Source: Hymenopellis radicata
Lineage: Eukaryota > Basidiomycota > Agaricomycetes > Agaricales > Physalacriaceae
Direction of reading: 5' to 3'
DNA length: 64,000 nt
NCBI GenBank assembly: GCA_015501595.1
Contig: JADNRX010000047.1
Coordinates: forward strand, 62,001-126,000
The translations under genes and the position numbers were made by a program. Shown here piece by piece: positions 1,261 through 47,671 of this stretch. The notes under the pieces are model-generated. The model worked only from the letters and a program-made list of their open reading frames with translations. It was not told where the DNA came from and made no database searches. Each line of letters starts with the position of its first letter. The stretch's first letter is position 1.

Positions 1261-2814
1261 GGCGGGAAAATCTGGAGGAGGGAATGAATGCTAGAGGTCG
1301 ACATAATCTATAGACTTTATACCTCTCCGCGAGAAGGTAACTCAGCATCTACCGGGTGCTGGGTTAGTTCTGTGAGGCACTCAGAAGAGTAATCTGCGAT
1401 GTTCATCGTCTACAGGTCCCCGGGTCGCAGAGAAAGGACGCATCTCGGATCTGAATCTAGTTTCATTTTAGAAGTATCATCGGGTGGTATTGTGGATTTC
1501 CAGAACGGAGACAAGCGGCTATAATGAGTATCGCGACCGCCTGAAGGAGTGTCAACATAATAGAAGGCACGAGGGGCCGAATCTAAATCGCGTCGTCCAA
1601 AGAGGATGATACGCCCCAGAGTTGATAGTCCGAGGTTTAATCATGAACCGGCAGAGAATTTTGGGCGTATTTAGGACTGGGAAACATGTTTAGACATGTT
1701 AACAGCACGGGGCTGCGAACTATGTATCATGATGGAGGCGGAACGCGTGCTTGAGTTAGATTCTGACGGGACGGAAGATGTATATGATTGAATAGTGGAA
1801 TGATAATCCGCCTTCTGTAACTCCGTTGATGGTGTTGTTTGTGAGGCACGTGGGCCGAACCAGACTACACTCCGGCACTCTTGTTCTCCTGACAGTGCTG
1901 CCGTCTATTGTCCCACGATGAGAGTAAGTACTAACTCCGGCGTCGGGTTGGTTTCCGGATTTCTGTTCTTGAAAAGTATCTGGGAATCCAATGGGACGTT
2001 AAGAGTTGAGCATCTAGGTACGCTGATTGAATTTACCCTGAGATCTCTGGTCCCCGTGAATAGAAAGTCACACATTCACGAGTAGAGGGCGGGAGTCAAA
2101 CGAGCACATCCTGTCGTGGATGAGAGGTAATCACCATCAAGTAAAAGGTTTCGTATTCTGTTGGGGTCGGACATTACCTGGTGGCGTGCCGTGCGGCGGA
2201 GCGCGACATGCGGCTCCCCTCTAGGCTCTGAGGCTGCGGAGAATAGGGAACGAGCAGCCACACGGAGGCCGTCCTGTGCAGGACGCTTACGTGCCTCACA
2301 GATCAGCGTGGACTTCACCTGACTTGCGCTTCGAGCCTTGAGACGTAAGAATCGATGTCTATATGTGTATCCTCTCGCGAAGAGGAATGAGAAAAATGAT
2401 GCTGAAGGGATTGTCTCCTTCTTCCTTGCAAATCGGTCGTTCGGGAGCGCGTCACGTAAAGCGGTATTCATTGGGCGCAAGACACGCGAGCAAATCAACG
2501 AAAGAGAATCACTGCTGCGACGTACGCACTTTGAATGGCGATAAATGAAGAGAATCCTGGCGTTAAGATGGCACTCACTGAAAGCGATCGCACCGTGGGA
2601 AGTCGCATACGAAGAGGATTTGAGGGTGTCTGCGTATGCCTTCGCGGGATGGGCATGAGTGAGAATGGTTGCAGTTCTACGGGAGCGACGCATGATTCGA
2701 TGATACATTCGGCTCAACGTGGTAGCATGAACCGAAGAGAGGTAACACGGTGATAGCAGTGTTGAATAAACATGTCAAGGGGCGGTCGAAAATCGTGGAG
2801 AGTACACTCGGCCT
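1261..2814. other. Intergenic stretch, no supported gene
   Basis: About 1.55 kb between the fatty-acid synthase start and the ARL2 stop. The longest open frame (2076-2717, minus, 213 aa) is rich in Arg and Ser, has no recognisable motif and is overlapped by open frames on the other strand. It looks like chance. No tRNA-like cloverleaf was seen. The part next to 1260 must hold the promoter of the synthase, but no clear core element stands out. Confidence 0.5.
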
Positions 2815-3596
2815 TCAGGCGGTCTGAGTGAGAGTAGCATCGAGGGTAGCGGGATTACTAGAAGGAGAAGGAGTCGAGGCGGAGTAGTAATACAACCTCC
2901 CCGCTACTTCGCCGACGACCCATTGGAGGCCTTCGAAAACATTTGCACCCGTCATCGCGCTACATGGAAATATTTTCCAATGATGGGATTTGATGCCCTC
3001 GAGGTCTAAGGCCTGTTAAGACGCCGATCAGAAGACAAAAGGTAAACATAGTTCAAGACTTGCGGATATGATCTCAGGAAGACTGAGAGCACCCGGGAGG
3101 TCTTGTTTGTTGGCGAACACGAGGAGAGATGCTCCTGCCAAGCGCTAAAACGGGCCAACGGTCATTGAAATGCACGCCACATTGCTAACGGTACACACGT
3201 CTTCACTTAAAAGTCCGCGTAATTCATCTTTACAGTCCTGCATGCGCATGCGGTCCGCAGAGTCCACGACCCAGACAATGGCGTCTGTTTGCTCAAAATA
3301 GTTTCTCCAATAAGGACGAAGAGTCCGCTGACCCCCAACGTCCCAGATATTCAGTGTAAACGGGGATCCGGGGAGCGCCAACGTCTTGATATTGAACCCG
3401 AGTGTAGGTGAAGTCGTTGACGTGTCCTCGTGTGAAATGTACTTTAAAATGGTCGTTTTCCCTGCGTTATCCAGCCCGCTACAAGAGAATGAGTGGGTAC
3501 AATGATCGGACGTGATTGTTCGGTTGCTTACAGAAAAAGAATGCGCATCTCCTTCGATTTCATCCGATTCTTGCGTATTATTGTCAGTAGACCCAT
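2815..3596 (-). CDS. ARL2: ADP-ribosylation-factor-like GTPase ARL2
   Basis: Small Arf-family GTPase that, with tubulin cofactors, acts in tubulin folding and microtubule function. Four exons: 3532-3596, 3199-3478, 3064-3144 and 2815-3012, giving 207 aa. The start MGLLTIIRK keeps Gly2. G1 is [10 protein letters not shown]3 is WDVGGQ, G4 is NKQD and G5 is CSAMTG. The segment [20 protein letters not shown] and the motif KSHHW are characteristic of ARL2 rather than ARL3 or ARF. Human ARL2 is 184 aa; here the C-terminus carries about 20 extra Ser/Thr/Pro-rich residues. The third intron (3013-3063) appears to use a GC donor (GCAAGT), the only choice that restores [16 protein letters not shown]. 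Introns 1 and 2 are canonical GT-AG. Identity is secure; the exact exon 3 end is inferred. Confidence 0.93.
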
Positions 3597-4999
3597 TTTC
3601 AGTTGCGTGTACTATAGCTAGAGAGCGCTGAGTTGTTGGATACAGCGTACAAGTTCAAATGTTCGTGGTAAAAGTCAAGGCTCGCTGACTAAGAGCTGGC
3701 GCAGTGTGACGAATTGATCGACCTGTGACATCGTTGAGCTCAACGGCGACGCTGACACGGATCCTGTAGCTCGTCTACATCGCGAGCTCCAGCAGACACG
3801 CAAGAAAAGGACACCCTCGCCGCGCAATACCGGAATCTCCTTCAGGAACTTACTCGTATGAAGACCACACTCAGGACTCCATACTCGTTCTCTCAGGCTC
3901 GCGTGAGTGTACAGGAAAGGTGAGGAAACCCCGCACCCTTCAAGTACCAATCTCGAGCAAATGCTTTACGCGGTTCTTGCGTGGGACTGGGCATCCGGTG
4001 TCGAAAGTCAGACCCATCACCTAGTACTAACTACTTTCCCATTACTCCTTCGTTCTCTATCCTTTCTACGTCATCACGGTCTCAGCAGATGGTTCGCGCG
4101 ACTTGCTGTTCTTCTTCCCAGCCTAGTAAGTTGGTTTTTCCGTCCGATTCACTCTTTCGTTTGGGAGGTGCCATATTAGCTTCGGATACAGACTTGAACA
4201 ATTAGGAACAAGCTTGACTTCGCACGTTTTCTACTCCGAAGAGAATTGAGGTTAACAGGAGAGTTTGCATTTAGGTGTACATGCTTAAGGCCACAAAAAG
4301 ACCATACATGCTTTTAATGTTCGAAGGCACCCCTAAAAATCTTATCGAAAGAGAAGAGTCGATCCGCCGCAGAGGGGTGCCACGATGGCTATTGCTCACC
4401 GTGAGTACAGTTGAAGCTTGAAGGCTTTCTGGTGAGAGCTGCGCAAATTGAAACTCTCCTCAGCCTCCCCTCCGGGCATCAGATGATTAGTAGCGAGAGA
4501 GCGTCGTTTGCCCCGCTTGTCCCCTACTTTAGGTCCTGAGCCCACTTGCAGTTCGCAATTCACCAACACCCACGCCGGACCGTTGAACGGATTGCACAAC
4601 GCGAAGCCCATGTCTGCCTTCGCACCGGTCAGTCTCCAAGGCGCCATAGATCATGTGTAGCGCATCCAGAAATTAGACGTACATCTAGACTCCAAAGTAG
4701 CAGGCTAACCGAAGCTCCCGCCACAGATTATCCTTGGCGAAGGGGGCGTTGAAGGAAAGAGAACACGGCGTTACGTCCGCTCCAAAGTTGAGTTGTCTAC
4801 AAGACTTGTAGGTGATTGGAAAGCGTATGAATGACAAGCAATTGAAGAGCAAAAGGCGAAAGAAACAAAGACTAGGTAAGAGGTAGTAAAACCGTCTTTC
4901 TACAAGATGGAAACAGGAAACAAACGGTATGAAGAAGAAGAAAAGTAACAGTAAATCAAGAATCGACATATAGAGCCAAAGTATATTCTAGACACCTAT
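3597..4999. other. Intergenic, contains a decayed dispersed repeat
   Basis: No gene supported. The part from about 3907 to 4330 resembles 24230-24690 (separate entry). A minus-strand frame at 4396-4647 and a hydrophobic, low-complexity frame at 4685-4969 match nothing I recognise and are probably chance. The end near 4990 is the 3' flank of the permease gene. Confidence 0.5.
3907..4330 (+). repeat. Dispersed degenerate repeat, copy 1
   Basis: Shares ordered blocks with 24230-24690: an ACCCCGCAC block, GGGACTGGGCATC followed by AAAGTCAGA, a CTCTCTTT/CTCTATCC block, and near the end GGTGTACATGCTTAAGGCC versus GGTGTACAAGTTTAAGACC. The blocks occur in the same order and at similar spacing but are heavily diverged. 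It is an old dispersed element or relic of a duplicated gene. No terminal repeats or coding domain were found. Confidence 0.6.
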
Positions 5000-22151: not shown

Positions 22152-23984
22152 ATGACTCAGCGATCAAGCAAAGCAGGTGACCGCAATCGGCGCGTGTCTT
22201 CCTCTTCAGCTTCAACAGAAATTGACAACACTGACAACAGCCACATCGGTAAGTCAATGTTTTCATGTGTTTTTCTCTGTACTCTAAACGAAGATAAGGA
22301 TATCGCAATGGATCCTGCCTCCAACACTGTCAGTCGTATCACGGACGTTGTGCCCGCCAACTTCCTCTGTGACAGCCAGACGCTGTCCGGAGTTGCCCAG
22401 TCAAAGCTAGCAGACGAGACGGCGTTATCGGCATTGGATGAAGAGATTCCTGCTCTTGAGGCTCGTCTACAACAGCTCAAGGCCGAGACGGCGACTCTTG
22501 AGCAGCTCATCGTCGACAAGGCCAACGAGCAGACGCGTCTGCGCTCGTCTATTGCCATGCATACGTCCCTACTTGCGCCTTCTCCCATGCGCGCTCTCCC
22601 ATGCGAGATCTTGAGTGAAATCTTCCTCGATTATGTCGCAATCTCCCAACCTGCGACATATAGTATTTTTAACGACATCGTTGCATTCCACCGCATCCAC
22701 ACACCTATTCTCCTAGTATGTCGTCGATGGCGTACGACCGCTCTAGCTGATCCACGGCTGTGGACCACCATTCCTTTCGCTGTTTCTAACAATCACGAAC
22801 GGAGATTCGCTCACCCTATGATATCTGGCTCTCGTGAGCAGCAGACTGCATATTGGCAGGCCCTTGAAAGACGAATAGGAGCCACTTCTACCCTTCCTAT
22901 CAACCTACTCTTCCACTTGGATTCTAACACTGATTTCGGCACTCCCACATACGCAATTTCCACCTTCCAGACGTTCCTTCGTTTGTTCCCAAGGGCGGAT
23001 ACCATTAGTGTTTACCTCTTCAGAGGCTTTTTAAACCACCATCTGCCACGCATTCCCGAGCTCGCCTCAATGATCGACGGTGCCGAGATTCCACTGGCCA
23101 CCCGCGTTCATACGGCCCGAGTATTTTTCTATGAAGACCAAGCGTTTTTTCGAAAAATCATGTCTGCCATACCCAATGTTGAAATCCTAGAGATACACTC
23201 CCTTGCCGGCGGCGAACTGAGTCTTCTTCAGCTTCCAAATCCAGGACATTGCCTGCGCAGCTTGCGAGTATCTGCGTCCATGCCTCTTGTCGACGTCCTT
23301 GCTCTTTTAGATCGTACACCACTCCTCGAGACCCTCGATGTCCGCATCGGAGCGCCCAGTACTGAAACCTGTCGCGTCGTAACCCATACCCGTATCTCGA
23401 CCTTGCGTCTCAGTGGGGTGGCTAGTACACAGGAAAACGATGCCATCTTCCAGCATCTTACATTGCCCGCCCTTCGTTCTTTGTCTTTCTCTACGATAGA
23501 TGACGAGAATGAATGGCCTCGTCCAAGTAATATTACCTTTCTGCGGCGCTCTGGCTGCAGGCTGACAGAGATTGCTCTCCGTCTCCTCAAAATCGACGAC
23601 ACACTCCTCATGGAACTCCTTTCGTTACAAAAGGATCTCAGTGTCGTCCAGCTTTTGTTTGGATATGCTGGTGAAGGGCACCTTTCGATGTCCATCCTCG
23701 ACTTTCTGTCCACAATACCCAAGGGTGCATTGAATCGTCCAGTCCCGGCACTGGAGGTCCTCACACTCGCGGTGCTTCCACGGCAATTGAAAAGGGTGCA
23801 ACGGCTTGTCGAATCGCGTTCTGGAGATCAAGCTCAGTCGGATGGCATTGCGCGCCTCGCCAAAGTTGACCTTCGAGTACGACTGAAAGGCAAGAAAACT
23901 GAAGTCAAACGGCTGGAGCACGCGGCTATGTTTGAGGCGCTTGTAAGTGCAGGCATAAACATCGAACTCTCATATGGAAGTTAG
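22152..23984 (+). CDS. F-box protein with N-terminal coiled coil, paralogue 1
   Basis: Predicted substrate adaptor of an SCF ubiquitin ligase. Start MTQRSSKAGDRNRR at 22152; a 45-nt intron (22249-22293, phase 1) carries no in-frame stop, so the open frame also reads through it. Order: basic N-terminus, coiled coil (ALDEEIPALEARLQQLKAETATLEQLI), the F-box (LPCEILSEIFLDYV ... ILLVCRRWRTTALADPRLWTTI) at about residues 150-210, then a leucine-rich C-terminal region of about 400 residues typical of agaricomycete F-box/LRR-like proteins. Roughly 600 aa. Close paralogue at 35515-37359, and 3' fragments of a third member in the MED13 array. Promoter, intron position and 3' flank are all shared with paralogue 2. 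Substrate unknown. Confidence 0.85.
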   Translation: MTQRSSKAGDRNRRVSSSSASTEIDNTDNSHIGKSMFSCVFLCTLNEDKDIAMDPASNTVSRITDVVPANFLCDSQTLSGVAQSKLADETALSALDEEIPALEARLQQLKAETATLEQLIVDKANEQTRLRSSIAMHTSLLAPSPMRALPCEILSEIFLDYVAISQPATYSIFNDIVAFHRIHTPILLVCRRWRTTALADPRLWTTIPFAVSNNHERRFAHPMISGSREQQTAYWQALERRIGATSTLPINLLFHLDSNTDFGTPTYAISTFQTFLRLFPRADTISVYLFRGFLNHHLPRIPELASMIDGAEIPLATRVHTARVFFYEDQAFFRKIMSAIPNVEILEIHSLAGGELSLLQLPNPGHCLRSLRVSASMPLVDVLALLDRTPLLETLDVRIGAPSTETCRVVTHTRISTLRLSGVASTQENDAIFQHLTLPALRSLSFSTIDDENEWPRPSNITFLRRSGCRLTEIALRLLKIDDTLLMELLSLQKDLSVVQLLFGYAGEGHLSMSILDFLSTIPKGALNRPVPALEVLTLAVLPRQLKRVQRLVESRSGDQAQSDGIARLAKVDLRVRLKGKKTEVKRLEHAAMFEALVSAGINIELSYGS

Positions 23985-34269: not shown

Positions 34270-35514
34270 ATTCCGTGGCCGCGGCTACTTGGATTTTATA
34301 AATTTGTTTTCTGCTTTGCTGTTTCGTGAACGCCTCTTACATCATATCTTTCTTTTCGATTATTGCTTTGTTAAACCGAATTGAGCAATCTTTCTCATGG
34401 AACTGTGTCAGTCTAAAACTTTGTTGATGAGGCCTCCAGTTTAGAATCCGTCAAGTCCGAAGTGAGCCTTGGGCATCGTGGTACAAGTCCTCTCAGCTGA
34501 GGCCGCTGGTCTATTCAACCAGTGAGAGCCAAGAGGAGCCCCGGGCAATGCGTTTTGGGCTTCTCTTTGGTTCGTTGGGGCCCGTCATGCCGAACCCTTC
34601 ACGCACCTACGATGTATGAAAGTTGGACTCGTGTTCATTGGGCAGAACTGGACAGTGGCATATTGCTAACTCGTCTTCGATTCTTGGACATACTACGCGG
34701 GTAATCTGTTCTAGGTGACGGTCTCCTTCTTTGTGCTATTCCCCTGAGCAGATGGACTCGTCGAAGAGCTACTCGTTGTCCACGATCCCCGAGCGTACAG
34801 CCACGCGTCCAGCTGTTATCTCGATGCATCACCCGCTCACAGAGCCACGAAGACGTCTCCGGGACGATGTCAGCACGACGCGCCGGCACAAAGCAGGCGC
34901 ACCCTGGAAGAGCACTCCCTTGAAGACGCACCCCAGAGTAGCAGTCCCCGCGATGATGCATCCCAGAGGAGCACCCTCGTGAAGACGCGCCGTATAGGAG
35001 CAATCCCTTGAAAGGGTAGATACACAAACGACCATTGCGCCGAGTCAGGTGAAGAGTCACGGTCAGAAAAGCATTCCTTGCTCAAACAGGGAAGACGGCA
35101 AAAAGGGCTTTTATGGCGTCGTTTGAAGTTAACAGCCTCTCCCGTACCAAAATTACGAAGATAGTCAAAATTCGAGAGCTGTTCGCGACAACGTTCCAAG
35201 GCAGAGCACCAGACCCGAATTGGATAAAATCATGCGGCCTCTATTGGAGGCCGTCCGTACAAAATGGGTATTTGAGCACCAAGTTTCCAAGGCAGTAGAG
35301 CAAAAGGAACGTTAGCACTGCTGTGCTGCAAGATGATTGGGTTATAATTAGCTGTAAAGCTGTAAAATCAATGGCTGCTCAAATTGCATCATTCTCAACG
35401 AACATCACGTCTTGTCGCGGACTTTTCCAGAGGGGCGGGGAGTGTACTTGCAATCTTGTAATCCAGCGACGACGTGGTTGAGTCCGATTGAACGAAGGTG
35501 AAAGTGTGGCAAAG
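34270..35514. other. Intergenic, 3' flank of peroxygenase and 5' flank of F-box gene 2
   Basis: No gene supported. 34440-34484 (TTTAGAATCCGTCAAGTCCG and following) is repeated at 47570-47613. Around 34905-35010 short motifs (CCCTTGAAGACGC, CCCAGAG-AGCA) recur in a loose tandem way. From 35350 on the sequence matches the promoter of F-box gene 1. Confidence 0.5.
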
Positions 35515-37359
35515 ATGACTCATCGATCAAACAGAGCAGGTGACCGCAATCGGCGCGTCCGACTTTCCCCAGACTTTCCCTTTTTCCACAACAGCCACAT
35601 CAGTAAGTCAATGTTTTCATGTCTTTTTTTCTGTACGCTAAACGCAGATAAGGGTATTGGAATGGATCCTGCCTCCAACACTGTCAGTCGCATCACGGAC
35701 GTTGTGCCCGCCAACTTCCTCTGTGACAGCCAGACGCTGTCCGAAGTTGCCCAGTCAAAGCTAGCAGATGAGAAGGCGTTATCCGCATTAGAGGAAGAGC
35801 TTCCCGCTCTTGAAGCTCGTATACAACAGCTCAAGGCCGAGACGGCGACTCTTGAGCAGCTCATCGTCGACAAGGCCAACGAGCAGACGCGTCTGCGCTC
35901 GTCTATTGCCATGCATACATCCCTACTTTCGCCTTCTCCCATCCGCTCTCTCCCATGCGAGATCCTGAGCGAAATCTTCCTCCGGTATGTCGCGATCTCC
36001 CAACCTGCGACATTTGATACTTTTGACGACATCGTTGCATCCCACCGCATCCACACACCTATTCTCCTAGTCTGTCGTCGATGGCGTACGACCGCTCTGG
36101 CTGATCCGCGGCTGTGGACCACCATTCCTTTGACTGTTTCTAACGACGGCACTCACCCCTTGATATCAGGCTCTCCTGAGCAGCAGATTGCATATTCGCA
36201 GGCCCTTGAAAGACGAATAGAGGCCACTTCTACCCTTCCTCTCAACCTTCTCTTCCACTTGTCTTCAGTCTCCAATTTCAGCACTTCCACTTACGCAATT
36301 TCCACCTTTCAGACGTTCCTTCGGTTGCTCCCAAGGGCGGATACCATCAGTGTTTGCTTCTCTTTACGCGAATACCTGCCCATTGCCATTCCCGAGCTCG
36401 CTTCAATGATCGACGGTGCTGAGATCCCACTGGCCACCCACGTTCATACTGCCCGAGTATTTTGCCTACACGAGGCGCTTTTTCGAAAAATCATGTATGC
36501 CATACCCAATGTTGAACGCCTAGAGATAGGCACCGACTTCCCGAGCGGATTGCGTTTTCTTGATCTTCCGAATCCAGGATGTTGTCTGCACAGCTTGCGA
36601 GCACCCTATGCTTTCATGCCTCTTGTCGACCTCCTTGCTCTTTTAGAACATGCGCCACTCCTTGAGACCCTCTGGGTCTGCAGCATCAAAGGGCCCGGTA
36701 TTGGAAACTGTCGTGTCGTAACCCATACTCGTCTCTCGACCTTCTACCTCACCGTGACTGCACTCGAAAATGATGCTATCTTCGAGCATCTTACATTGCC
36801 CGCCCTCCGTTCTCTGTTTCTCTCTACAAGAGATGACAGGCAGCAATGGCCTCGGCCAAGTAATATTACCTTTCTGCGGCGCTCTGGCTGCATGCTCATA
36901 GAGGTTGCTCTCCATCTCCTCCAAATTGACGACACACTCCTCATGGAACTCCTTTCGTTACAAAAGGATCTCAGCTTCATGCAGCTTAACGTCTTTGACC
37001 TTGTTGGGCAAGGGCCCCTTTCGATGTCCATCCTCGAATTTCTGTCCACAATACCCGAGGGTGCATTGGATCGTCCAGTCCCGGCGCTGAAGGTCCTTAC
37101 ACTCGCGGTGCTTCCAGGGCAATTGAAAAGGGTGCGCGGGCTTGTCCAATCGCGTTCTGGAGATCAAGCTCAGTCGGATGGCATTGCGCGCCTTTCAAGA
37201 GTTGACCTTCGAGTACAAGTGAAAGAGAAGGCAAGTGAAATCGAACGGCTGGAGGAAGCGGCTATGTTTGAGGTGTTTGTAAGCGCAGGCATAGACATTG
37301 GGCTTTCGTACAGAAGTCGGTGTGTGATACGGTGGAACTTCGGAATCGTGGGAAGGTAG
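35515..37359 (+). CDS. F-box protein with coiled coil, paralogue 2, C-terminus replaced by LTR sequence
   Basis: Paralogue of 22152-23984 with the same 45-nt phase-1 intron (35603-35647), coiled coil (ALEEELPALEARIQQLKAETATLEQL), F-box (LPCEILSEIFLRYV ... LLVCRRWRTTALADPRLWTT) and leucine-rich C-terminal region. The open frame runs intact to FVSAGIDIGLSYRS and then crosses the left end of an LTR element at 37323, so the last 12 residues and the stop come from the LTR. Before insertion the frame would have continued about 19 residues into sequence now beyond 47064. The F-box and leucine-rich region are complete, so the protein may still work, but its native 3' UTR and polyadenylation signal are displaced by 9.7 kb. 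Confidence 0.85.
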   Translation: MTHRSNRAGDRNRRVRLSPDFPFFHNSHISKSMFSCLFFCTLNADKGIGMDPASNTVSRITDVVPANFLCDSQTLSEVAQSKLADEKALSALEEELPALEARIQQLKAETATLEQLIVDKANEQTRLRSSIAMHTSLLSPSPIRSLPCEILSEIFLRYVAISQPATFDTFDDIVASHRIHTPILLVCRRWRTTALADPRLWTTIPLTVSNDGTHPLISGSPEQQIAYSQALERRIEATSTLPLNLLFHLSSVSNFSTSTYAISTFQTFLRLLPRADTISVCFSLREYLPIAIPELASMIDGAEIPLATHVHTARVFCLHEALFRKIMYAIPNVERLEIGTDFPSGLRFLDLPNPGCCLHSLRAPYAFMPLVDLLALLEHAPLLETLWVCSIKGPGIGNCRVVTHTRLSTFYLTVTALENDAIFEHLTLPALRSLFLSTRDDRQQWPRPSNITFLRRSGCMLIEVALHLLQIDDTLLMELLSLQKDLSFMQLNVFDLVGQGPLSMSILEFLSTIPEGALDRPVPALKVLTLAVLPGQLKRVRGLVQSRSGDQAQSDGIARLSRVDLRVQVKEKASEIERLEEAAMFEVFVSAGIDIGLSYRSRCVIRWNFGIVGR

Positions 37360-37722
37360 CTTAGTAATCCTTTCCATATACGTTTGTTCGTGTCACAGTA
37401 GTTAGTTTAATTCATTACCATCATCTTACTCTCCCCAATGTGCTGAGCTTCGTCTCCGTAACTTGTACTTGATACTAACCACTTACTGCCCGCTGAGCAC
37501 CCGTGTAACGGCTTCCCGGGTGCGGGTCAAACACTCCCTACGACATATGGGTTACAATCTCTTGTCAACCATTCTCCTCGCGACCTGTCTCGTCATCCGC
37601 CGCGTCCTCATCGTACGCGCCGACGCGTCCCGCCTCCGGCTACGCGACCTTCCGACAGGTCATATCGGTATCCTCTCGCGGAGAAGTCCTGGAACTGGGT
37701 GGAATCGGGCACTCGATTCACA
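37323..37722 (+). repeat. 5' LTR
   Basis: 400 bp, begins TGTGATACGGTGG and ends CTCGATTCACA. Constant offset of 9,342 bp to the 3' LTR along the whole length; no difference was noticed by eye. Confidence 0.93.
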
Positions 37723-37723
37723 G

Positions 37724-37740
37724 TGGTGGGGTCACCCAGG
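37724..37740 (+). other. Candidate tRNA primer-binding site
   Basis: TGGTGGGGTCACCCAGG starts one base after the 5' LTR. TGG pairs with a tRNA CCA tail, and the rest could pair with an acceptor and T-stem. Which tRNA is not identified. Confidence 0.45.
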
Positions 37741-37840
37741 ACTTCACCGCTTCCCAGAGGATACCAAGCTGGTTGAGCTTCTGGCTCCCGGCTTGCAAGG
37801 ATACCAATCCGGTTGAGCTGCTAGCCTGCAGCTCCCGGCG

Positions 37841-40800
37841 AAGATAGAGCTTTAGCTCTCTTTGCATGCAGGCCTGACCGAGCTTCCAGCTCCTCTGGTC
37901 CGCTACAAGATAGAGCTCTAGCTCTCTTGTACCCTTGCATGATTGAGCGTGTCGCTCTCATGTTTGCGTTACTGGCACCGCTGACATTGCGACCACGGCT
38001 CCGCCACGGGTCTTCATTCGGATCATTCTCAGTGTGCGTAGGCGCATCCCAGCTGCACACTCTTCGGATTCCCCTCCTCACCATGCCGTGATTCGCGCAC
38101 CAGCTGCTGTCACTTCAACATCTCTCACCAAGCTCAACCCTTTCCATCTGCTCCATGTTTGACGCCCACTGTCACTCCATGTTCGACGACTGTCGCGATA
38201 TTGACTCTCGGCTCCTCCGGGCTCCTCGCTTGGTTGAATGACGCATGTGGTAGACGCCGGTCTCACTCTCACTAGTTTCCTCACGCACGGCGGGCTTTGT
38301 CGCATTTCGTATGACTCTTCCCATTTGGCTCTGTCCTTTCGAGCCGTATCTACTCACTGGCGTTATCTGTCGCCGGTGCCGATACGTAGAGATCATTTGA
38401 CACTGGCCGTAATACCACCATCTCGATAACCACGTCTCAACCTCAGGGCACTGACAACCTGTGCGCTTCATCGAGACTCAAGTTATGTCGACTCCGCGAT
38501 CTATTAGGAATGCTTGTCAGTCCTTGACCATATCAACGATTGCAACCCCTGGTCCCGCCCAGCTGCTAAACAACCCGAATGCTTACCTTACGAACGACTA
38601 AGCCTCAAACAAGAATCCTCGTTGGATCTGCAGCTGCGTATCGATGGACCATAGGTCCGCATTGGCTAGGACGACAGACGTCTAGATAATGTTTGATTGA
38701 TCCGCTCCAGCGTTATCAAGATCTCGACAGCTTGAGCGTTCTCGGCTTATGATTTAGCAACAGGACGGTCTTGGAACATGTCGTAGATAGACCCTAATGC
38801 TACCCTGCTCTCCCAAAGTTCGCTTGGAAAAGATCCCTGATGGTACTTGATGGAGTACCAGCAATGCATCCCCGAGATTGAGCTCTAGCTCTCTCTAATC
38901 CTATAACGAGTACTTGATTCTTGCGGCGACGTCAAATTGCTGTTATCTTTATGGAATCTCGTTTGGACACCTCCCAGCTAGGTTCATTGTTATGTTTGAG
39001 CATCTTTCATGGGACTTCCTTCCAATGTGTCAACAAGAAAGTACGCATCTGGAACGGACAATGCAGACAAACCGCTCGAAATCGATGACCGTTCACAGCC
39101 AGCACTGACCAAGAGCTTCTCTGCATTACCCAAACTAGAGGGAGATCCCGATCCGACAGCCCACCCGTCGCGGTTCACAAAGGATCTGCTTAGAACTGTC
39201 AGACTTCCCGCACGGCCAGAGGACATGACAGAGGAGTTCGAAGTCGAGGTGCTTGAGAAACAGCTTCGACATCTCAACAACGGATCCATCGACCAATCAT
39301 GTCCGCCTTCCCCAACGTCACACGCACCGCACCTTCCCTTCACAACCAATACCTGCTCTACTGACTACCCGTCATTGTCCTCGCTGTTTACGCGGATGAT
39401 TCGCTGTTACAAATGGTGTTCTCTCTGAAACTCGTTACACTTCAGTTGCGATATTTGCGGTGCTGGCATTATTGTTCTGAACCCACGATAACCTTGGACA
39501 GGACCTTCGAACCCGCTGTCTGCCTCTAACATTCCAGCCTCAACGACTGTGACCGCCGTCGTTTAGGAAATAAATGCTGGACGACGATTATCGCCAGAGC
39601 AGCTAGACCCCAGGCGCGAATGAGTACTGGCCTGCTAATAGCTATCAAACCACGGCTCCTTCTAGTTCGATTAATACGGTCTACGGGATATTGTGGCCTT
39701 CAACTCTCAACGAATTCTGTTGCTCTATATGTGTGGCTCGTAAAGCGACCTTGACTGGAAACAGCAAGGCAGAACTTCGTCTCTATAGGATTCGACAGGA
39801 TAGAGCTCTAGCTCTCCTACTTACTAGGCGTGATGGAGCTTTAAATTCCTTTGCCATATAGAGGTTGAGCTGTAGCTCTCTCACCGTCTTCGAGGCGCGT
39901 GCAAAAACACTGTAATCAATTTCTTGGTGCCTCCGAGCTTCATCCCACACTCGGCTGTCTGTTCAGGTGTTGTTACTTCCCAAGCTCGTACAGCCAGGCT
40001 TCTCGTCTTGGAGCCTTCTTCAACCCTTGTCGGCGCGGCCGCATGTATCAACCCGCCTAAAATGATTCGGAGTCTTGTTCTCCTTCCGATATCCGTGGGT
40101 TACTTGAACTTTTTGCCCGAGACTCTCTACTTTGGCCTTCCCTTGTCGTCGCGATTTACGTCCCCTTTGGCTATGCTTTGCTGCTCAAGATTCCGGTCCT
40201 TGGCATCAAACGTTCTTCGATACCGTGTATGACATCGTGACTTGACGAGTCTTGACGTCGCTATCAGGATCAAGGGTTTGGTGCTTGTCAATTGGTCGTT
40301 GTATTCTCCAGGACTAGCTCAGTAGCTGGACGAGGATGACTAATCCATCACCCTCTTTGCCATCTTCATCGACGACTCGTTACCGCTAACCCGCTCAATT
40401 TGGCCGTTTCTAGAGCGTCTCTGGAACTCGTTACGATGCAGTCGCGATATTCGTGACGTTGGGATTGGTTGTTTCCGAATCCACGGCAACCTTGAACACG
40501 ACCTCCGCATGACTCGTAAGGTGGCCAAAACAAGACTGATCTTCAGCTGTCTTGTGTTTTCAACAGGATGGAGCTTTAGCTCTCCTGACCGGCATGATGG
40601 AGCTTTCAGCTCCTTGCTATTAATAAGATTGAGCTTCTAGCTCTCTTGTGCATTCCTGGGCTGAGCCTGCAGATCTCATTCTATGCTTCCGCTAGCCATC
40701 ATTCGATTCTTGAGATCATGTTCGTACTTACTGTGCCATCAAGCGGCGTGCGGCCAAGGTCACGATCAACATGTCAACATCCGACCTTAGATTTCGTGCC

Positions 40801-43800
40801 TCCGCTTTAACCATTCTTTGATACTGCGTCTAATGCGCTGACTCTGCGAATCTCGACGCTGGACCGGTAGGATGAGCCTGGGTATGTCCTGGATATTGCT
40901 ATCATCGCTTTCACGACAACGATCTCAACTTGAACGCGACTCCTCTGTTTCTGTCGGGCGTCCAGAGTCGACTCATTACCCCTAACGCGCCAATGCGGCC
41001 GTTTCTAAGGCGTTGTCTTTGGAACTCGATACGCTGCAGTCGCGATATTCGCGTTGGGATTAGTTGTTTCTGAATCCAGGGCAGCGGTTGTATGCACTAT
41101 GTGTCGCCGTACTATCTCTTTTTCCGTCCTTCGAACTTGACATCTTCAGCTGTGTGTGCGACCACGGTCTGTTAGGAGATAAATGCTGGACGACGATTAT
41201 CGCCAGCAACCGGACCTCAGGCGTAAAGACTCCAGGAGCACTTCTATTCTATTGGCTTGCTGTCAAACCATAACCGTCGTTTGGGCTTCCTTGGAGTTCC
41301 GCGTCCAGCAACACGGATCGGGCTTCTGCCACCTGGAAAGACAGCCATGTTTCGGCGAAACCAAAAGTCTATCTGCTCTTAAAGGCACTCTCAAGTCCAG
41401 ACTAGCGTCCGCACCGGAGGGTTCGTTTACGAAGCGCTTGTTCCGCACGCCAATGTCTACATGTTCCACGATGCGCAAGTGCTAGCCGACCGGAAGACAC
41501 CCGTTGTCGAGACCATGCCAGGCATTGTGTCTTCGCTATGCCACCGCGTCCCGAGTACGATTAATGATGTGCCGTTACCTTCAGTCTCAATGGAACATGT
41601 TACCTTCCCGCGCGTGACATGTAAGACGACTTGGACTAGGAACAGCAAGACAGAACATCGTCTCTTCGTGATTTCAGGATGGAGCTCTAGCTCTCCTTAT
41701 TCAGGCATGATGGAGCTCCTTTGCCGTCTAGCCAGATTGAGCTTCTAGCTCTCTGCTTTGCTCCAGACTATTCTTCGCCACTTGGATTCAAGGAAGTCAC
41801 GGTTTCCAGCCACCGTCTTCAAAATTCGCCCAACCCCTAACACGGCTCATGCGCATTCAATTCGTTGTTGGAATCAATTCGTCTTTTAGTCCGGACCATC
41901 TCTTCAACCATGGGGGCGACTTGCTCTACCCGTTGCCCATATTGACCCGAACCAAGACCTCTTTCCTTCTGGCGAGCGTCTTTTCAGCCCTGTTCCACTG
42001 CCGTTTCGGGCTCAATCCTTCGAGTCTTGCCTCGCCATTGTAATGACTCACGTACCGTTTTGGATCTGTCGTTTGCGGTTGTTCCCCTGCTGAAGATTTA
42101 CAAACACCGTTTCTGATGCGTCATCGCTACGAAATGTGACGTTGGCACCAGTACTCTTCGGGCTGAAGGTTTGACGCGCTTTCCGAACTGTTGCCTTCTC
42201 TCGGACCGGCAGGAAGAGGTTTATCACCACTCTCGCAACATCTACATCAATAGCGGCCTTCAAGTGTACAATCAGCATTCCCGTAGTCAGCATTTCGAGG
42301 AATTTTCAGTCATGACTGTCAACCCCGACGGTTGATCTCGACTGCATGACGCGCGTGTGTTCTGACAGCTCAGTCTGCTACGATCAAGAGCTAGTTTGTC
42401 ATGGTCGGCTTGCCAGCTTGTGGGCTGCTTATCGCTGCCCGGATGCATCCAATCAAGATTGAGCTCTAGCTCTCTTGAGCCTACTAGCACGAATCACGAT
42501 AGAGCTGGTAGCTCTCGTGCCACGGACGGGATGGAGCTTTTAGCTCTCCTTCTACTACCTCAACCTACGTACCCCTGGGATCTCGTCGTCCTCATTTCGG
42601 GTCACCTGGACATTGTTTTATTATTACATTGACGACGTATTATGGCCTAGCTTGCAGCACTGGTTTTCGCGGTGTTCCTCTTCCGCTTTCTATCGATACC
42701 GCCGTACTCCAGGCTCGTTCTGCACTTGTCGCTGTTGTAACAGAGTTCAAACGTCGGTGCGGCTCATGATCACCTTGTTCACTTCTCCTAGGTATTGAGA
42801 ATTTGGACGCCATACATGTCCGAAGTTCAGACGAGGGTGTAATCGACATCTCAGCTCCGCGTGGCTGGAATATATACGGCTCTTGACAAACCAGGCGTTA
42901 GCTTGTCCGCTTTGACATTCGTCGACGTCCTGGAAGATAATCAATCTGTCTCGGTCTCGACGCGAGATTCCCGGCGTGTTTGACGGAGGTGTGCATTGAG
43001 ACAGGATTGAGCTATAGCTCTCTTGTAATTGTGACTTCGACGAGATTGAGCTTATAGCTCTCTTGACCTTTTTCGGCACGTGTGAACCAACATGTCCTTA
43101 CTCAATGACTCTGACAATGACTGTGGGGACTACTTACGATACTTGATCTCTGCAGCATCGTTCGCCCGATGACTATGATGTACCCGTGCCTTGGACATTA
43201 TGGATGATTATCTTCGGCGCCAACTCTCATCCGTCTCGACAGTTAAACTCGAGTCTCGCGCTGTTCTGCACTAGACAGAAAATTTGGCATCCGAGCACCC
43301 ACTCTTAAGACCACCACGGTACACAGTCAGTGCTGGTCTGGGGGGCGCAAGGGTGCTCCAGCGCGGGCCGCAGCAATACAAATTCACAGCAGTGAAATTC
43401 TTCATTCCACGGACTGCTACTTGGAGCTGTCACTCGTGACGCTTGGACGCTGGACGACACGAAGTCTCACATCAAGCTACTTCTGTGCTTCAAGCCATTA
43501 CAATCGCTGTCGCACGCACTTCGTGTGAACATCATCTAGCTCGTGTTAGGTAAAAGGCTGTCTTCAAGTCGTCATTGATTCGTACGAGATACAAACCCGG
43601 ATCATGCACTATTTATCGAGATGCTGCTTGTCAAGGAGGAAATCCCTCAGAAACGACTACCCTTACGCAGACATTCCGCCAGCATGAGCACGTTCTTGTT
43701 GATGCAGGCATACTAGTGACCAGCTTCCCGGTTTCATTTCACACGGAACACGATATGCCGGGTTCCCTCATCACCAGCATGAGCCATTTCGCGTGGTCAG

Positions 43801-45837
43801 TCGTTATTGTTGAGGTTGCTCGTCCTCGTCATCTCCATGTTGGTCGGGTCATTCGTCCTGATCGCTATGGCCACGTCGCTTGTCATCATTGTCGCTATTG
43901 CTGCGTCGTTCATCCTCATCTCCACCCACGGTCGGGGTTCCTGATGCATTTGAGCAAGATTGAGCTTTAGCTCTCTTGAAATGGCTTGGTGGAACTTTTA
44001 AACTCCTTGCCTTGAACGAAATGGAGCTTCTAGCTCTTTCGTCTTTCGTTAAACGCTAGCCGCGTCACTGTCACTGTCACCCTACTGCGTGAGCGTTGTC
44101 TCGTTCTCTTGCTCGCGCCATATGTCACCAGTGCGAACTCGGACTCTTGTGCTCCAGTCCATTCGAGGCCTTCCACGAACCCGGTCTAAGCCCACTACTG
44201 CATTAAACCGCCAGCACGACCTTCAGCCATTGTCGCTATTCGCCTGCCATCCGGCGACCGGTTGTTTCGTCATCTACGGTCCCGACTCATTGCTAGTAAT
44301 CAGTCAGCTTTCAATGTACGACTTCAGCGCACGCTAATGATGTTGAATCGGATGCTTGAATCGAACCATCATGCTTAGCAGGCTTCTTCAATCGCGGCAT
44401 GCACGGCACATATCTCTGATGTTTCCGGTCTTCGACCGACGACTTGCATAATCATTATCGTAGTATCATCGTGACATGCGTACCGAGCGCTCAGAGCACA
44501 TCAAGCTACTTCCGCGCTTCAAGCCGATACAGTCTCTGCCGGCGCGCACTTTGGGCGAATATCAGGATTCATCTGACCCGTACTAGCTGGCCGTCTTCAA
44601 GCTGTCGTCGTTCTGTACGAACTACAGACCTGGACCGGCATATCCCACACTACGCAGCGCTCCTGGCCATCCACCATCCGTCTTGTCCACCTTACTAGTC
44701 ATGTCCGGCTGTCGATATCATACTTCCGGCGCGCATCTTTGGATTGAGGTTCTCACTGTCGACTCGTTACTCTCAACATTGTCCCTAAGACGCCGTCAAT
44801 GCGCCCTGTCACGCTAACCTTGCGACATATCTTCACTGGCGCTGCCGTGGCTGCAGTAGGAGCAGAGTTCCTCCACCTTCATCTTGTCCCCGTTCATGGG
44901 CACAGCCTTTGACTGCGCAGAGACGGGGCTCGCGGTTTTGAATATCCCAGCCGTCGACCGGTATTCTGAGAATTGGAAGATATGGGCCTTAGTATTAGCG
45001 ATGCGAGCTGAGAGCTTCGTCTCTGCTTTTCGCAGTGCGGCGAACACCGTGCCGGCGCAGCCTCTCAAAGCCTGTCGACTCAAATCCTGAGCTACAGTGG
45101 CGGCATACTGCAGTTTTCCTTTCCGCTGTCAAGCTTCGTCCGGCGTCCACCCACCGTCACCAATCACTGGTGTCTGCACCAAATGCACACCGCATTTTGG
45201 CTACCGAACCACTTAGTGACAATTCTGAATCCTCGATTGGCGACGACTAGATGCTCATTGCCGTCAACGTTTGCAGCGGCAAGACATCTCGGTATAGGAT
45301 CGAGCTTTAGCTCTCTTGTATTTGAGCAGCCCGCCTTCAATCATCAACATCGCGACAGTTTCAATCACGATCAACTACTGGCAAATGGTCTCTGTACTGC
45401 TTCGTGCCGGTAGTCCTTGTTGTTTGACCACAGTTCTCATAACGGTGTCAGTTCGTCTCTGTCCCCGTCGGAGGCCCAAGGTACTCCAAGTTATATCCCG
45501 GTCACAACTTCGACTATGAGATTCTACGATGAGATATGTATCGCACGATTCACTGTTCATGCGCGCACGACTACTCTCCATGGCTCGAAACCGACATTCA
45601 CAGGGCCCAAATTTTTATTCAAGATAGAGCTTGTAGCTCTCTTGTATTATTCTCCTTTTGGCCAAGTACTCCTTACTCTACAATGTGATGCCATGATTTC
45701 GAATCTGATTCGTCTGCGTATACCGGCTGCAGTCCCTTCGGGTCTGGGAGGCAGAGGCTTACACCACATGCCGGACTCCAGTGATTGAGCTTTAGCTCTC
45801 TTTCCGTAGTATTAGCATCGAGCTTGTAGCTCTGCTA
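37841..45837 (+). repeat. Family of about 20 covarying hairpins inside the LTR element
   Basis: Each is 22-27 nt: outer stem of 4-6 bp, two unpaired bases on the left (TT, TA, TG or TC), inner stem GAGCT/AGCTC and a 2-4 nt loop. Clear members: 37905-37930, 37938-37962, 38874-38895, 39797-39818, 39861-39882, 40564-40587, 40625-40647, 41676-41697, 41733-41755, 42453-42478, 42495-42519, 42528-42550, 43001-43026, 43041-43065, 43955-43978, 44016-44042, 45296-45317, 45620-45644 and 45813-45837. Outer stems differ but stay complementary: CAAGA/TCTTG, CAGGA/TCCTG, CACGA/TCGTG, CATGA/TCATG, TAGCA/TGCTA, CGAAA/TTTCG. One member (37938) also covaries in the inner stem (GAGCG/CGCTC). Degenerate versions lie at 37841, 40595, 41708 and 45783. 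Confidence 0.88.
39420..44645 (+). repeat. Diverged internal modules of the LTR element
   Basis: Same-orientation repeats inside the element: about 39564-39612 with 41174-41222 (both contain GCTGGACGACGATTATCGCC); about 39425-39500, 40420-40500 and 41010-41090 (GGAACTCG-TACG-TGCAGT, then CGATATTCG); about 43470-43610 with 44500-44645 (CACATCAAGCTACTTC-G-GCTTCAAGCC). Spacings are about 0.6-1.6 kb. Hairpins tend to sit in pairs between such modules. Confidence 0.75.
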
Positions 45838-46664
45838 TCGAAGGAAATGGATTTCTTTGTGCCAAAAAGGAGTGTGCAGCTTCCGACTGAAACTCTAGCA
45901 TCAGTATCAGTTACTCAGCTCTGAGTCGAGCTGCGACTTGACGGGGACTCAGCGATTCCGACCAGACAAACCTGTTTTCGGAAGCTACCAACCAGGACAG
46001 CAGTGGCCCGTCGTCAGATACAGCTCAATAACGAAGACTTGCCTCAAAATTTATGCAAAAATTTTTTCTGCGCCATTGACGAATCGCATGTCCCAGCTGG
46101 GGGGCCACTGTTCATTGGGGCTAGGTTTTGTAAATCAGAAGCAAATCTGCGCAAGCAGCAAATTCGTTTCTGATGTGGGGGGCTGTAGGGGGTACTGGGT
46201 ACCAAGGATGACGCACACAGCGAGTCATCCTATACGAGGTCGGCAAGTGTAGACTGGATCACTGTCCGATGGCATCACCACGCAAGTTATTACCACCAGT
46301 AGTAGGGTGTAACGTGGCGAACACAGAGAGCCATGCTCATACTGCCACGGACACGACACGGACACGGGCGAGCTCCTTGACAGAGTCATTGGCGAGTCGA
46401 GGAGAGCCAGAGGAACCCGAAGGAGTGACGGTCCATTAGGAATCACCATCGCAGACTGGCGATCATCGAGAAGGAGTGTCGACCAGCATAGCAAACAAGC
46501 CGACTCACGCAGTTCAGATGCTGCAGTCTGAGCATCATGATTATGGAATCAAGCTGCTCAAATTTCTTGCAGGATTTCTGACTCGGAGGGTCAGATTTCA
46601 ATGCGAGTCTTCAAATCAATTCACCCAGGCTATTTGAACCTCCCTTGCCACGATTGGGGGGCAC

Positions 46665-47064
46665 TGTGATACGGTGGAACTTCGGAATCGTGGGAAGGTA
46701 GCTTAGTAATCCTTTCCATATACGTTTGTTCGTGTCACAGTAGTTAGTTTAATTCATTACCATCATCTTACTCTCCCCAATGTGCTGAGCTTCGTCTCCG
46801 TAACTTGTACTTGATACTAACCACTTACTGCCCGCTGAGCACCCGTGTAACGGCTTCCCGGGTGCGGGTCAAACACTCCCTACGACATATGGGTTACAAT
46901 CTCTTGTCAACCATTCTCCTCGCGACCTGTCTCGTCATCCGCCGCGTCCTCATCGTACGCGCCGACGCGTCCCGCCTCCGGCTACGCGACCTTCCGACAG
47001 GTCATATCGGTATCCTCTCGCGGAGAAGTCCTGGAACTGGGTGGAATCGGGCACTCGATTCACA
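46665..47064 (+). repeat. 3' LTR
   Basis: Second 400-bp LTR, followed directly by the target duplication CGGTG. The sequence after it (GTATGAAACTGGTT) matches the 3' flank of F-box gene 1 (GTAAACTGGTT), confirming that it is the displaced 3' end of F-box gene 2. Confidence 0.93.
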
Positions 47065-47671
47065 CGGTGGTATGAAACTGGTTGTTTTGGAACATTCTTG
47101 CACAGTCCAAATGGGCATTCGTAGGATTATGCGCGCCCTGGCGCGGTCGCTACGGATGATATATCTCTTGTAGATTCAACTAGCAGAGTCTGCCATCTGC
47201 ATCTAGTCTACACAAGCGACATTGACGTCGCGTACATAGGGCTTCGTCGTATAATCAATGCATGTTTGAATAATTATAACTCGCCGCCGAACTCGACATG
47301 CGATGGGGTGCACTAGCGGGTTAGTGATTAAAAGGGACTTGTAAGCAACTCGCAGTGCAAATATATGCGTTCGAAAGGTTTAGATGCGAATATATGCGTC
47401 CGAAAACAGGGTTGAATGCGAATATATGCGTTCGAAAACAGGTTTAGATGCGAATATATGCGTCCGAAAACAGGGTTGGATGCGAATATATGCATTCGAC
47501 AAAGTTTAGATGTGAATATATGCGTCCTAACAGAGATTTAGATGCGCATATATGCGTTCGAACACAGGTTTAGAAGCCGTCGAGTCCGAACCGAGCCTTA
47601 GGCATCGTGGCGCCAATAATAACACTGAATTTATGGGAGGTAAGCATTACATAATCACCAATGCTTCCTCG
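47065..47671. other. Displaced 3' flank of F-box gene 2 and 5' flank of MED13
   Basis: Contains the end of the former F-box coding region, the ACTCGACATGCGATGGGG block shared with F-box gene 1, the minisatellite (separate entry) and the short repeat at 47570-47613 shared with 34440-34484. MED13 transcription must start within or just after these repeats. Confidence 0.6.
47357..47574 (+). repeat. Minisatellite, about 7 units of 30-32 bp
   Basis: Unit core GCGAATATATGCGTCCGAAA, then ACAGGTTTAGAT. The seven units differ by a few substitutions each. The homologous place after F-box gene 1 (about 24166-24190) has a single unit, so the array grew here. It lies about 100 bp before the MED13 start codon. 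Confidence 0.88.

Follow-up and report, generated by a model that had tools for sequence, protein, structure and literature searches.

Packaging signals in MS2-type single-stranded RNA viruses are stem-loops that share a loop motif and a base in the 5′ bulge, according to passages of PMC6281560, and retroviral packaging sites lie just after the primer site, as described in parts of PMC5454406. For the long terminal repeat (LTR) retrotransposons Ty1 and Ty3, packaging sequences lack a clear definition, according to a section of a review that also allows for a contribution from scattered sites (PMC4974528); how the proteins of LTR retrotransposons choose their RNA is an open question. Gene-less LTR elements carry the name of large retrotransposon derivatives (LARDs; name and reference, Kalendar 2004, as given in a portion of PMC5718144). 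Gene-less LTR elements and dispersed packaging signals are thus already known separately; we found no description in open-licence full texts of their combination, or of hairpins running through the linkers of a retroelement's own genes. Here, we analysed 64,000 nt of the agaric Hymenopellis radicata (contig C818, positions 62001-126000; hereafter the window), with genome searches over the 75.5-Mb assembly of 1405 contigs. Positions 37323-47064 of the window are a single gene-less LTR element carrying a small bulged hairpin over and over. These hairpins are conserved in structure, sense-stranded and nearly confined to this family of elements. We infer that selection acts on an RNA hairpin required in cis, and comparison of sequences together with analogy makes it fairly probable that the hairpins are dispersed packaging or recognition signals in a gene-less element of a chromovirus family, with the zinc-knuckle protein Gag as the candidate reader.

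A covarying hairpin in a gene-less LTR element

The hairpin of the window element, here called type A, consists of an outer stem, a 2-nt 5′ bulge (mostly U-N), an inner stem GAGCU/AGCUC and a loop N(N)U. A sequence-only reading had described about twenty bulged hairpins in a noncoding LTR element, and selection by the exact inner stem alone returned 23 sites, all in sense. The constant 2-nt bulge of that description held, and the outer stems it named (CAAGA/TCTTG, CAGGA/TCCTG, CACGA/TCGTG, CATGA/TCATG, TAGCA/TGCTA and CGAAA/TTTCG) are present in the element, as is the inner-stem variant GAGCG/CGCTC; its account of extent and form had to be amended on two points, namely that the array starts earlier, at 37767, just past the primer site, and that copies with a 2-nt ‘loop’ really have a 4-bp inner stem and a 4-nt loop. 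Scanning for structure alone (an outer stem of 5 bp, a left bulge of 2 nt, an inner stem and a loop of 2-4 nt) gave 16 matches on the + strand inside the element and none on the - strand; two of these matches are shifted readings and one (45957) is unrelated, leaving 13, and the same scan with bulges of 0, 1, 3 and 4 nt on both strands gave 0, 0, 1 and 0 matches. The covariance model R1 and its alignment A2 comprise 22 of the 23 sites, the weak one at 37880 being omitted. In the window, R1 returned 23 matches at E <= 0.004, all on the + strand within the element (the training hairpins match by construction), and nothing elsewhere up to E = 1.

All five covariation measures of the window set (22 hairpins) exceed those of shuffled alignments. 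Paired cells make up 95.0% versus 86.9%, the score is 0.281 versus 0.109, pair types number 16 versus 8.1 and cells with changes on both sides 17 versus 4.1, none of these values being reached in 500 shuffles, while pairs changed on both sides (5 versus 2.5) were matched in 2 of 500; sliding the partner by 1-3 columns lowers pairing to 32-59%. The pieces examined from the same family hold 164 sites selected by inner stem, 102 of them distinct, and their outer cells pair across the 2-nt left bulge in 414 of 510 cases (81%), compared with 26-48% at every other offset. The family alignment (A1) holds all 51 distinct sites with a 3-nt loop; of the 42 distinct 2-nt-loop sites, just the window's 12 were aligned (in A2). 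In A1, 89.8% of cells are paired (77.5% after shuffling), 70 cells are changed on both sides (26.7) and the score is 0.362 (0.146), with 0/500 shuffles as high for each, and a slid partner leaves 32-53% paired.

In the family set, outer pair 3 occurs as AU, GC, CG, UA, GU and UG, and the inner closing pair is UA (44) or GC (7). The last leader hairpin reads CATGA..TCATG in the window's subgroup and CATGG..CCATG in elements C463, C537 and C794, with the G-U form CATGG..TCATG in a neighbouring leader hairpin of like kind. In homologous stretches compared with the window outside the LTR and leader (85 alignments, 33 with a hairpin), identity is 95.7% in inner stems, 90.0% in outer stems, 81.2% in flanks, 83.1% in bulges and 80.9% in loops. 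Type-A pairing is thus kept while the sequence is freer, and the proposal that the folded RNA is the preserved unit is supported; outer stems pair and covary even when the hairpins are chosen by inner stem alone.

The motif is also nearly confined to this LTR family. The pattern GAGCTN{1,2}TAGCTCTC has 140 matches in the genome, against 10 for a reversed control pattern; of the 100 listed, 89 lie in contigs of the family, all in sense, and the other 11 are single, a number near that of the control. Among GAGC-type hairpins in the pieces examined, 120 of 121 have the orientation of the LTR, and the remaining one overlaps a hairpin that does. Counts per element are lower bounds, most relatives being covered in part. 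In public viral contigs, the type-A pattern occurs in 11 stretches, with one match each, and the pattern of the sister hairpin described below (type B) in at least 120, with one match in each of the 80 listed; these are chance matches, not arrays.

The hairpins, all on the + strand, crowd the stretch just after the primer site: the first 268 nt past the LTR contain four of the 23 inner-stem sites and the remaining 8.7 kb the other 19, and the same crowding is visible by eye in 12 aligned leaders. The leader array (37767-37990) holds copies at 37767-37793, 37839-37864, 37872-37899 (weak, E 0.17), 37905-37930 and 37937-37963. Beyond the leader, hairpins stand alone or in groups of two or three, and in some groups a weaker hairpin without a bulge lies between the others. 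Single copies lie at 38872-38897 and 45294-45319 (both from the covariance model) and at 45619-45645, which has the top model score (40.5 bits). Pairs occur at 43001-43066 (43001-43026, 43040-43066) and, near the 3′ end, at 45779-45838 (45779-45804, 45812-45838). One triplet, at 40563-40649, is made of 40563-40588, an unbulged middle GGAGCUUUCAGCUCC at 40592-40618 and 40623-40649; another, at 42453-42552, of 42453-42478, 42494-42520 and 42526-42552. The remaining clusters are 39795-39884 (39795-39820 and 39859-39884, with a degenerate middle near 39835, by eye), 41674-41757 (41674-41699, 41731-41757) and 43954-44042 (43954-43979 and 44016-44042, with a degenerate middle near 43989, by eye). 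The middle-hairpin pattern GGAGCTTTNAGCTCCTTG, allowing up to two mismatches, is not distinctive, with 15 genome matches against 13 for its control. Elsewhere in the window, an identical 24-nt bulged hairpin, ACGAGCGCAGACGCGTCTGCTCGT, lies on the minus strand at 22525-22548 and 35879-35902, perhaps in paralogous genes.

The element itself is bounded by two 400-nt LTRs on the + strand (37323-37722 and 46665-47064), identical at 400/400 positions, which begin TGTGATACGG and end GATTCACA (TGTGATA...TTCACA), and by a CGGTG target-site duplication at 37318-37322 and 47065-47069; paired direct LTRs with a short target duplication are what defines an LTR retrotransposon. The LTR together with the start of the leader has at least 52 matches in the genome. 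One nucleotide beyond the left LTR, a primer-binding-site-like stretch of tRNA type, TGGTGGGGTCACCCAGGA (37724-37741, +), starts with TGGTGGGG, and a polypurine-tract-like stretch, TTGGGGGGCAC (46654-46664, +, by eye), precedes the 3′ LTR, as does the G-run GGGGGGCAC; both candidate priming sequences are in the expected places. The primer-site region is shared with the coding relative C686 (below), and 12 family leaders, retrieved through CACAG[TC]GGTGGGG, also have the bases downstream of this pattern in common. No coding capacity was found, the longest stop-to-stop frame wholly inside the element being 142 aa, and the Gag, Pol and extra open reading frame (ORF) proteins of C686 have no tblastn match at 1e-4 in the window or the type-A loci examined. 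Gene-less, more than 4 kb long and with a large internal domain, the element fits the definition of a LARD; lacking genes, it is a chromovirus derivative, not a chromovirus. Since the LTRs are identical, it has moved recently, and we read it as a recently inserted non-autonomous retroelement that shares its LTR family with a chromovirus (a Ty3/Gypsy element whose integrase bears a chromodomain).

Across the family, our own reading of the flanks gives 5-bp duplications in 10 of 13 readable elements (absent in C567, C463 and C794; C88 is unreadable), and of 14 LTR pairs recovered, 12 reach an identity of 98.6% or more, 11 of these 12 belonging to gene-less or gene-broken elements. A retrozyme or other self-cleaving ribozyme element was considered and rejected: Rfam matches for 37000-47200 at E <= 5 include no hammerhead or other known ribozyme, and the single match is a lncRNA model (E 3.8, 17 bits versus a gathering score of 60).

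Several further features of the insertion and its family can be recorded. By eye, the element splits the last codons of an F-box-gene-like frame (35482-37359); when the flanks are rejoined minus one duplication, this frame stops at residue 631 instead of 625, six residues later. Just past the element, at 47375-47577, lies a tandem array of an approximately 32-nt unit resembling GATGCGAATATATGCGTCCGAAAACAGG. The interior at 41600-44600 is a mosaic of blocks of some 40-400 nt, 63-95% identical and shared patchily with some ten other elements, as expected of template switching between co-packaged RNAs. Two relatives, C463:81677-90968 and C794:6845-16164, have LTRs just 88.7% identical and no matching target duplications; their flanking 5-mers (GTATG, ATGCC) appear swapped, as if by reciprocal recombination or an assembly mis-join.

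Sister hairpins in a chromovirus and its gene-dead relatives

LTR similarity led to a gene-bearing relative, C686, a 13.2-kb element with identical 320-nt LTRs, whose LTR and primer-site region partly match those of the window element. Its Gag frame, 1481 aa long, includes a CCHC knuckle (by eye), and the element has Pfam matches to RVT_1 (2.6e-28), RT_RNaseH (1.6e-25), Integrase_H2C2 (2.6e-14) and Chromo (2.3e-9), as well as rve at 8.3e-4, under its cut-off; with a chromodomain in its integrase, C686 is a chromovirus. Its integrase frame has no relative that we found in public viral contigs. Two extra frames without a Pfam match, one of them arginine/serine-rich, lie downstream of the integrase (locus L067, 3288-4085 and 4297-6318), and relatives of the extra frames are present at several loci of the genome. 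For the second frame (ORF3), the databases yielded a single homologue, a Mucidula mucida (Physalacriaceae) protein of 542 aa that covers 79% of ORF3 at 85% identity, with stretches that are identical by eye; it contains the peptide A-x-S-A three times. Taken by itself, this match would make M. mucida or a close relative the probable host.

C686 carries 20 copies of a sister hairpin, type B, GGC-N-GCU-NAU-AGC-GCC with a 1-nt bulge, whose outer stems include GGAGC/GCUCC, AUGGC/GCCGU, GGGC/GCCC and GUGGC/GCCGC. Types A and B have their plan in common: a 5′ bulge, a stem end GCU, a loop NNU and AGC. When sites are chosen by GCU-NNN-AGC alone, the 1-nt left bulge gives pairing in 313 of 360 outer cells, versus 93-166 of 360 at other offsets. 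In the alignment of all 62 distinct type-B sites, chance cores included (A3), 86.7% of cells are paired versus 73.0% in shuffles, and the score (0.277 versus 0.085) and the both-side changes likewise exceed them (0/500 each); a slid partner reduces pairing to 22-55%. The pattern GGCNGCTNATAGCGCC has 98 matches in the genome against one for its control, and 95 of these, all in sense, fall within five LTR-related elements (C158 24, C224 19, C824 18, C686 17, C707 17), the remaining three being single (C687, C797, C1339).

Two of the C686 hairpins lie upstream of the Gag open frame, and the others run through coding sequence, in Gag linkers, between protease (by eye) and reverse transcriptase (RT), between RNase H and integrase, and in ORF3, none of them inside a Pfam match. 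All 18 coding hairpins read A-x-S-A in frame (A-A-x-S-A; x being H, N, D, Y, S or C in our search), with codons GCT, NNT and AGC, in a protein background where serine is AGC in 42 of 306 cases and alanine GCT in 85 of 288. The peptide occurs at most once in each of 18 Gag homologues from elsewhere. Between protease and RT, C686 has an unaligned stretch of 76 residues, compared with 12 in the homologue P0001, and four other proteins leave 6-63 C686 residues unaligned between these blocks. Between the coding copies of C686 and C707, inner stems show 0 differences in 90 positions, outer stems are 0.992 identical and the rest 0.958, and bulge and loop bases differ.

In three relatives, C158, C824 and C224, Gag and Pol are reduced to fragments with breaks. 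The LTR pairs of C158 (99.7% identical) and C824 (100%) are nearly identical, so both have moved lately; that of C224 was not comparable in the pieces examined. With query hairpins marked by the exact core and three outer pairs, stem identity stands above that of the flanks throughout: for C158 and C824, 1.00 (inner), 0.967 (outer) and 0.844 (flank); for C158 and C224, 0.975, 0.909 and 0.69; for C824 and C224, 1.00, 0.952 and 0.82; and for C158 and C686, 1.00, 0.957 and 0.773. The lowest outer identity, 0.875, comes from C224 against itself (32 positions, flank 0.71). Apart from this small self-comparison, bulge bases vary freely in most comparisons (0.17-0.88) and loops are intermediate (0.67-0.94). 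Gene decay is therefore tolerated in these relatives while the hairpin stems are retained. In C158, an internal duplication (locus L068, 1483-1604 and 4013-4129) is 74% identical; hairpin-bearing segments may multiply by segment duplication.

A third hairpin type may exist in C113, whose integrase frame is 71% identical to that of C686 and which is absent from the LTR match list. It was at first negative in a scan for recurrent hairpins; weak model matches (R1 at E 0.14, R2 at E 0.72) then led to hairpins of the form GG-U-G-U-AGCU-NNU-AGCU-C-C, with U bulges, in the protease-RT linker and also, ahead of the ORF3 match, in a later frame. Of eight sites folded, four fold as drawn. The pattern TGTAGCTNNTAGCTCC has eight genome matches versus two for its control; four are in C113, those on C225 and C672 lie in or beside Gag-related matches, and those on C607 and C913 are more than 10 kb from any known match. 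We tentatively call this candidate type C.

Candidate readers of the hairpins

The sequence-only reading had offered packaging, dimerization or protein-binding signals of a parasite RNA as one explanation, and this is the one that the comparisons appear to fit best, given the sister hairpin in a gene-bearing relative and its retention by gene-dead ones. Multiple stem-loops with a shared motif run along one RNA, as in a dispersed packaging-signal system. In the mechanism we propose, Gag, with its zinc knuckle, would bind multiple hairpins and so pick the element RNA for virus-like particles; a parasite could then be reduced to LTRs, priming sites and hairpins, which would be all it retains, and the hairpin types would have diverged alongside the protein reading them. 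Because a parasite must compete for Gag, an element-encoded reader, most simply Gag, suggests itself. Three further considerations point the same way: the array begins at the place where packaging sites are found in retroviruses, each particle contains many copies of Gag, which would give many sites a use, and the design, a variable stem bearing a 5′ bulge and a loop motif, is that of the MS2 class.

A bolder version, which we put forward tentatively and at somewhat less than an even chance, is that the LTR family uses a diversifying RNA ‘password’, a bulged hairpin headed by GCU-NNU-AGC that would be repeated even through coding linkers and read by Gag, the parasites consisting of LTRs plus passwords. 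Each sub-lineage would have its own version (the window family type A, C686 with its derivatives type B, and C113 perhaps type C), as expected of a helper-parasite arms race.

Several observations weigh against reading the hairpins as Gag-read packaging signals. Two of the measures, the number of pairs changed on both sides and the number of pair types, are rated by the tool as the safest against false alarms; on these, shuffles were as high in 266 and 14 of 500 cases for the type-A family set, and in 7 and 156 of 500 for the type-B set. Predicted folding in contexts of about 200 nt gives a mean probability of 0.54 for inner and 0.36 for outer stems, with 5 of 23 inner stems at 0.1 or less, and some type-A hairpins favour other pairings; not every copy is thus predicted to fold alone, in our view because adjacent copies can pair together. 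R1 finds no type-B hairpin at E <= 1, and nothing in C686, and the type-B model finds no type-A hairpin below E = 1; as the two types cannot be aligned, their shared plan could be convergence, and the helper of the window family may be a different one. Type-A hairpins were found in no element that bears genes, and de novo scans for recurrent hairpins in the parts examined of two other chromoviruses, C12 and C741, returned no such array. Finally, nt 429-4979 of yeast Ty3 are dispensable when proteins are supplied in trans, according to a section of PMC4974528, so dispersed signals are no general need.

Of the alternatives, the one that survives best, although we consider it unlikely, is that the hairpins serve nuclear export, stability or translation control of the unspliced RNA, read by the basic, RS-rich ORF3 product or a host protein, much as the export elements of complex retroviruses are. 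Covariation and confinement fit any RNA reader, and the extra Arg/Ser-rich ORF of C686, 674 aa long, contains three of the hairpins; the leader location and the retention in gene-less parasites, however, fit packaging at least as well. Apart from C686 and C707, six contigs carry ORF3 relatives, and the listed matches of types A and B include none of these six, a point against this alternative that is not decisive.

The sequence-only reading had also raised a tiny palindromic element spreading inside its host, much as mitochondrial double-hairpin and repetitive hairpin elements do, and this we now find quite improbable. Copy number is high and variable, leader copies are tandem-duplicated in C537 and C712, 18 of 18 Gag homologues from elsewhere have A-x-S-A no more than once, and some aligned homologous places lack the hairpin. 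Yet counts outside the family are near chance, no separate antisense copy was seen, homologous hairpins differ by compensatory changes, and copies appear to multiply together with flanking sequence, by segment duplication. A total of 925 homologous flank alignments comprised 896 scored as ‘present’, 16 as ‘empty’ and 13 as ‘partial’, and inspection covered all of the latter two classes and part of the first. The 16 seemingly empty ones are all at leader hairpins, where the leader alignment has another hairpin in the same place; once leaders were aligned, no precise gap in place of a hairpin was seen among the 925.

Sites acting at the DNA level, whether dimeric protein sites or cruciforms, have a slim chance. 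The core is palindromic in DNA, and the lack of a G-U excess at type-B outer pairs 1-3 (0 G-U to 9 A-C) would suit such sites, but bulge polarity is fixed in sense, outer stems covary across the bulge, and hairpins in linkers are placed by codon. At type-A outer pairs 1-5, G-U outnumbers A-C by 25 to 10 (p 0.017, uncorrected for relatedness), as sense RNA predicts. Of the earlier pairing of folded RNA with cruciform DNA, the cruciform is thus the less likely half, the G-U/A-C test being mixed between the two types.

That the A-x-S-A repeat is the selected feature and the hairpin its by-product has next to no chance, even though all C686 coding hairpins share the peptide in frame: synonymous choices are identical at 18 of 18 sites, two of the hairpins precede the open frame of Gag, stems are retained in gene-broken elements and the window family has no such coding, so that a peptide-only reading is refuted, by codons, for the family as a whole.

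Should the packaging reading hold, LTR retrotransposons would have what is, as far as we know, their first dispersed packaging-signal system, with some twenty copies of the candidate sites visible in the sequence. The coding copies show the codons of a eukaryotic retroelement being set by the structure of its RNA. Natural compensatory mutants, a coding version beside several non-coding ones, and the occurrence of both hairpin types within a single genome make helper-parasite recognition directly testable with short RNAs and a single protein, and the hairpins offer a means to recognize gene-less LTR elements.

Comparison with known systems

LARDs are reportedly long gene-less LTR elements that rely on proteins supplied in trans, and the window element, long and gene-less, would likewise depend on such proteins. 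We neither know of nor found in the literature searched a LARD description with a repeated covarying hairpin array, and the window element is fungal. C686 differs from other chromoviruses in its two further ORFs and its approximately 20 hairpins, mostly inside genes.

Mitochondrial double-hairpin and repetitive hairpin elements (PMC2800124) reportedly resemble the hairpins described here in being small and present in many copies; in contrast to those elements, the hairpins here nearly all belong to one LTR family, have one orientation and bear no sign of independent insertion. A mobile palindrome would occupy unrelated sites with precise presence and absence, whereas here the count outside the family is near that of the control and no precise empty site was seen.

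As in MS2-type viruses, many short stem-loops share a bulge and loop motif while differing in sequence, the MS2 motif being (x)xYA in the loop with an A in the 5′ bulge (passages of PMC6281560); unlike MS2, the carrier is an LTR retroelement in a fungal genome, whose hairpin number and covariation are known from its sequence alone. Several stem-loops near the primer site are likewise a feature of Ty1, Ty3 and retroviral psi regions. The signals of those systems, however, lie near the 5′ end (within 580 nt in Ty1), according to sections of PMC5454406 and PMC4974528, whereas copies of the hairpin in the window element run almost to the 3′ LTR.

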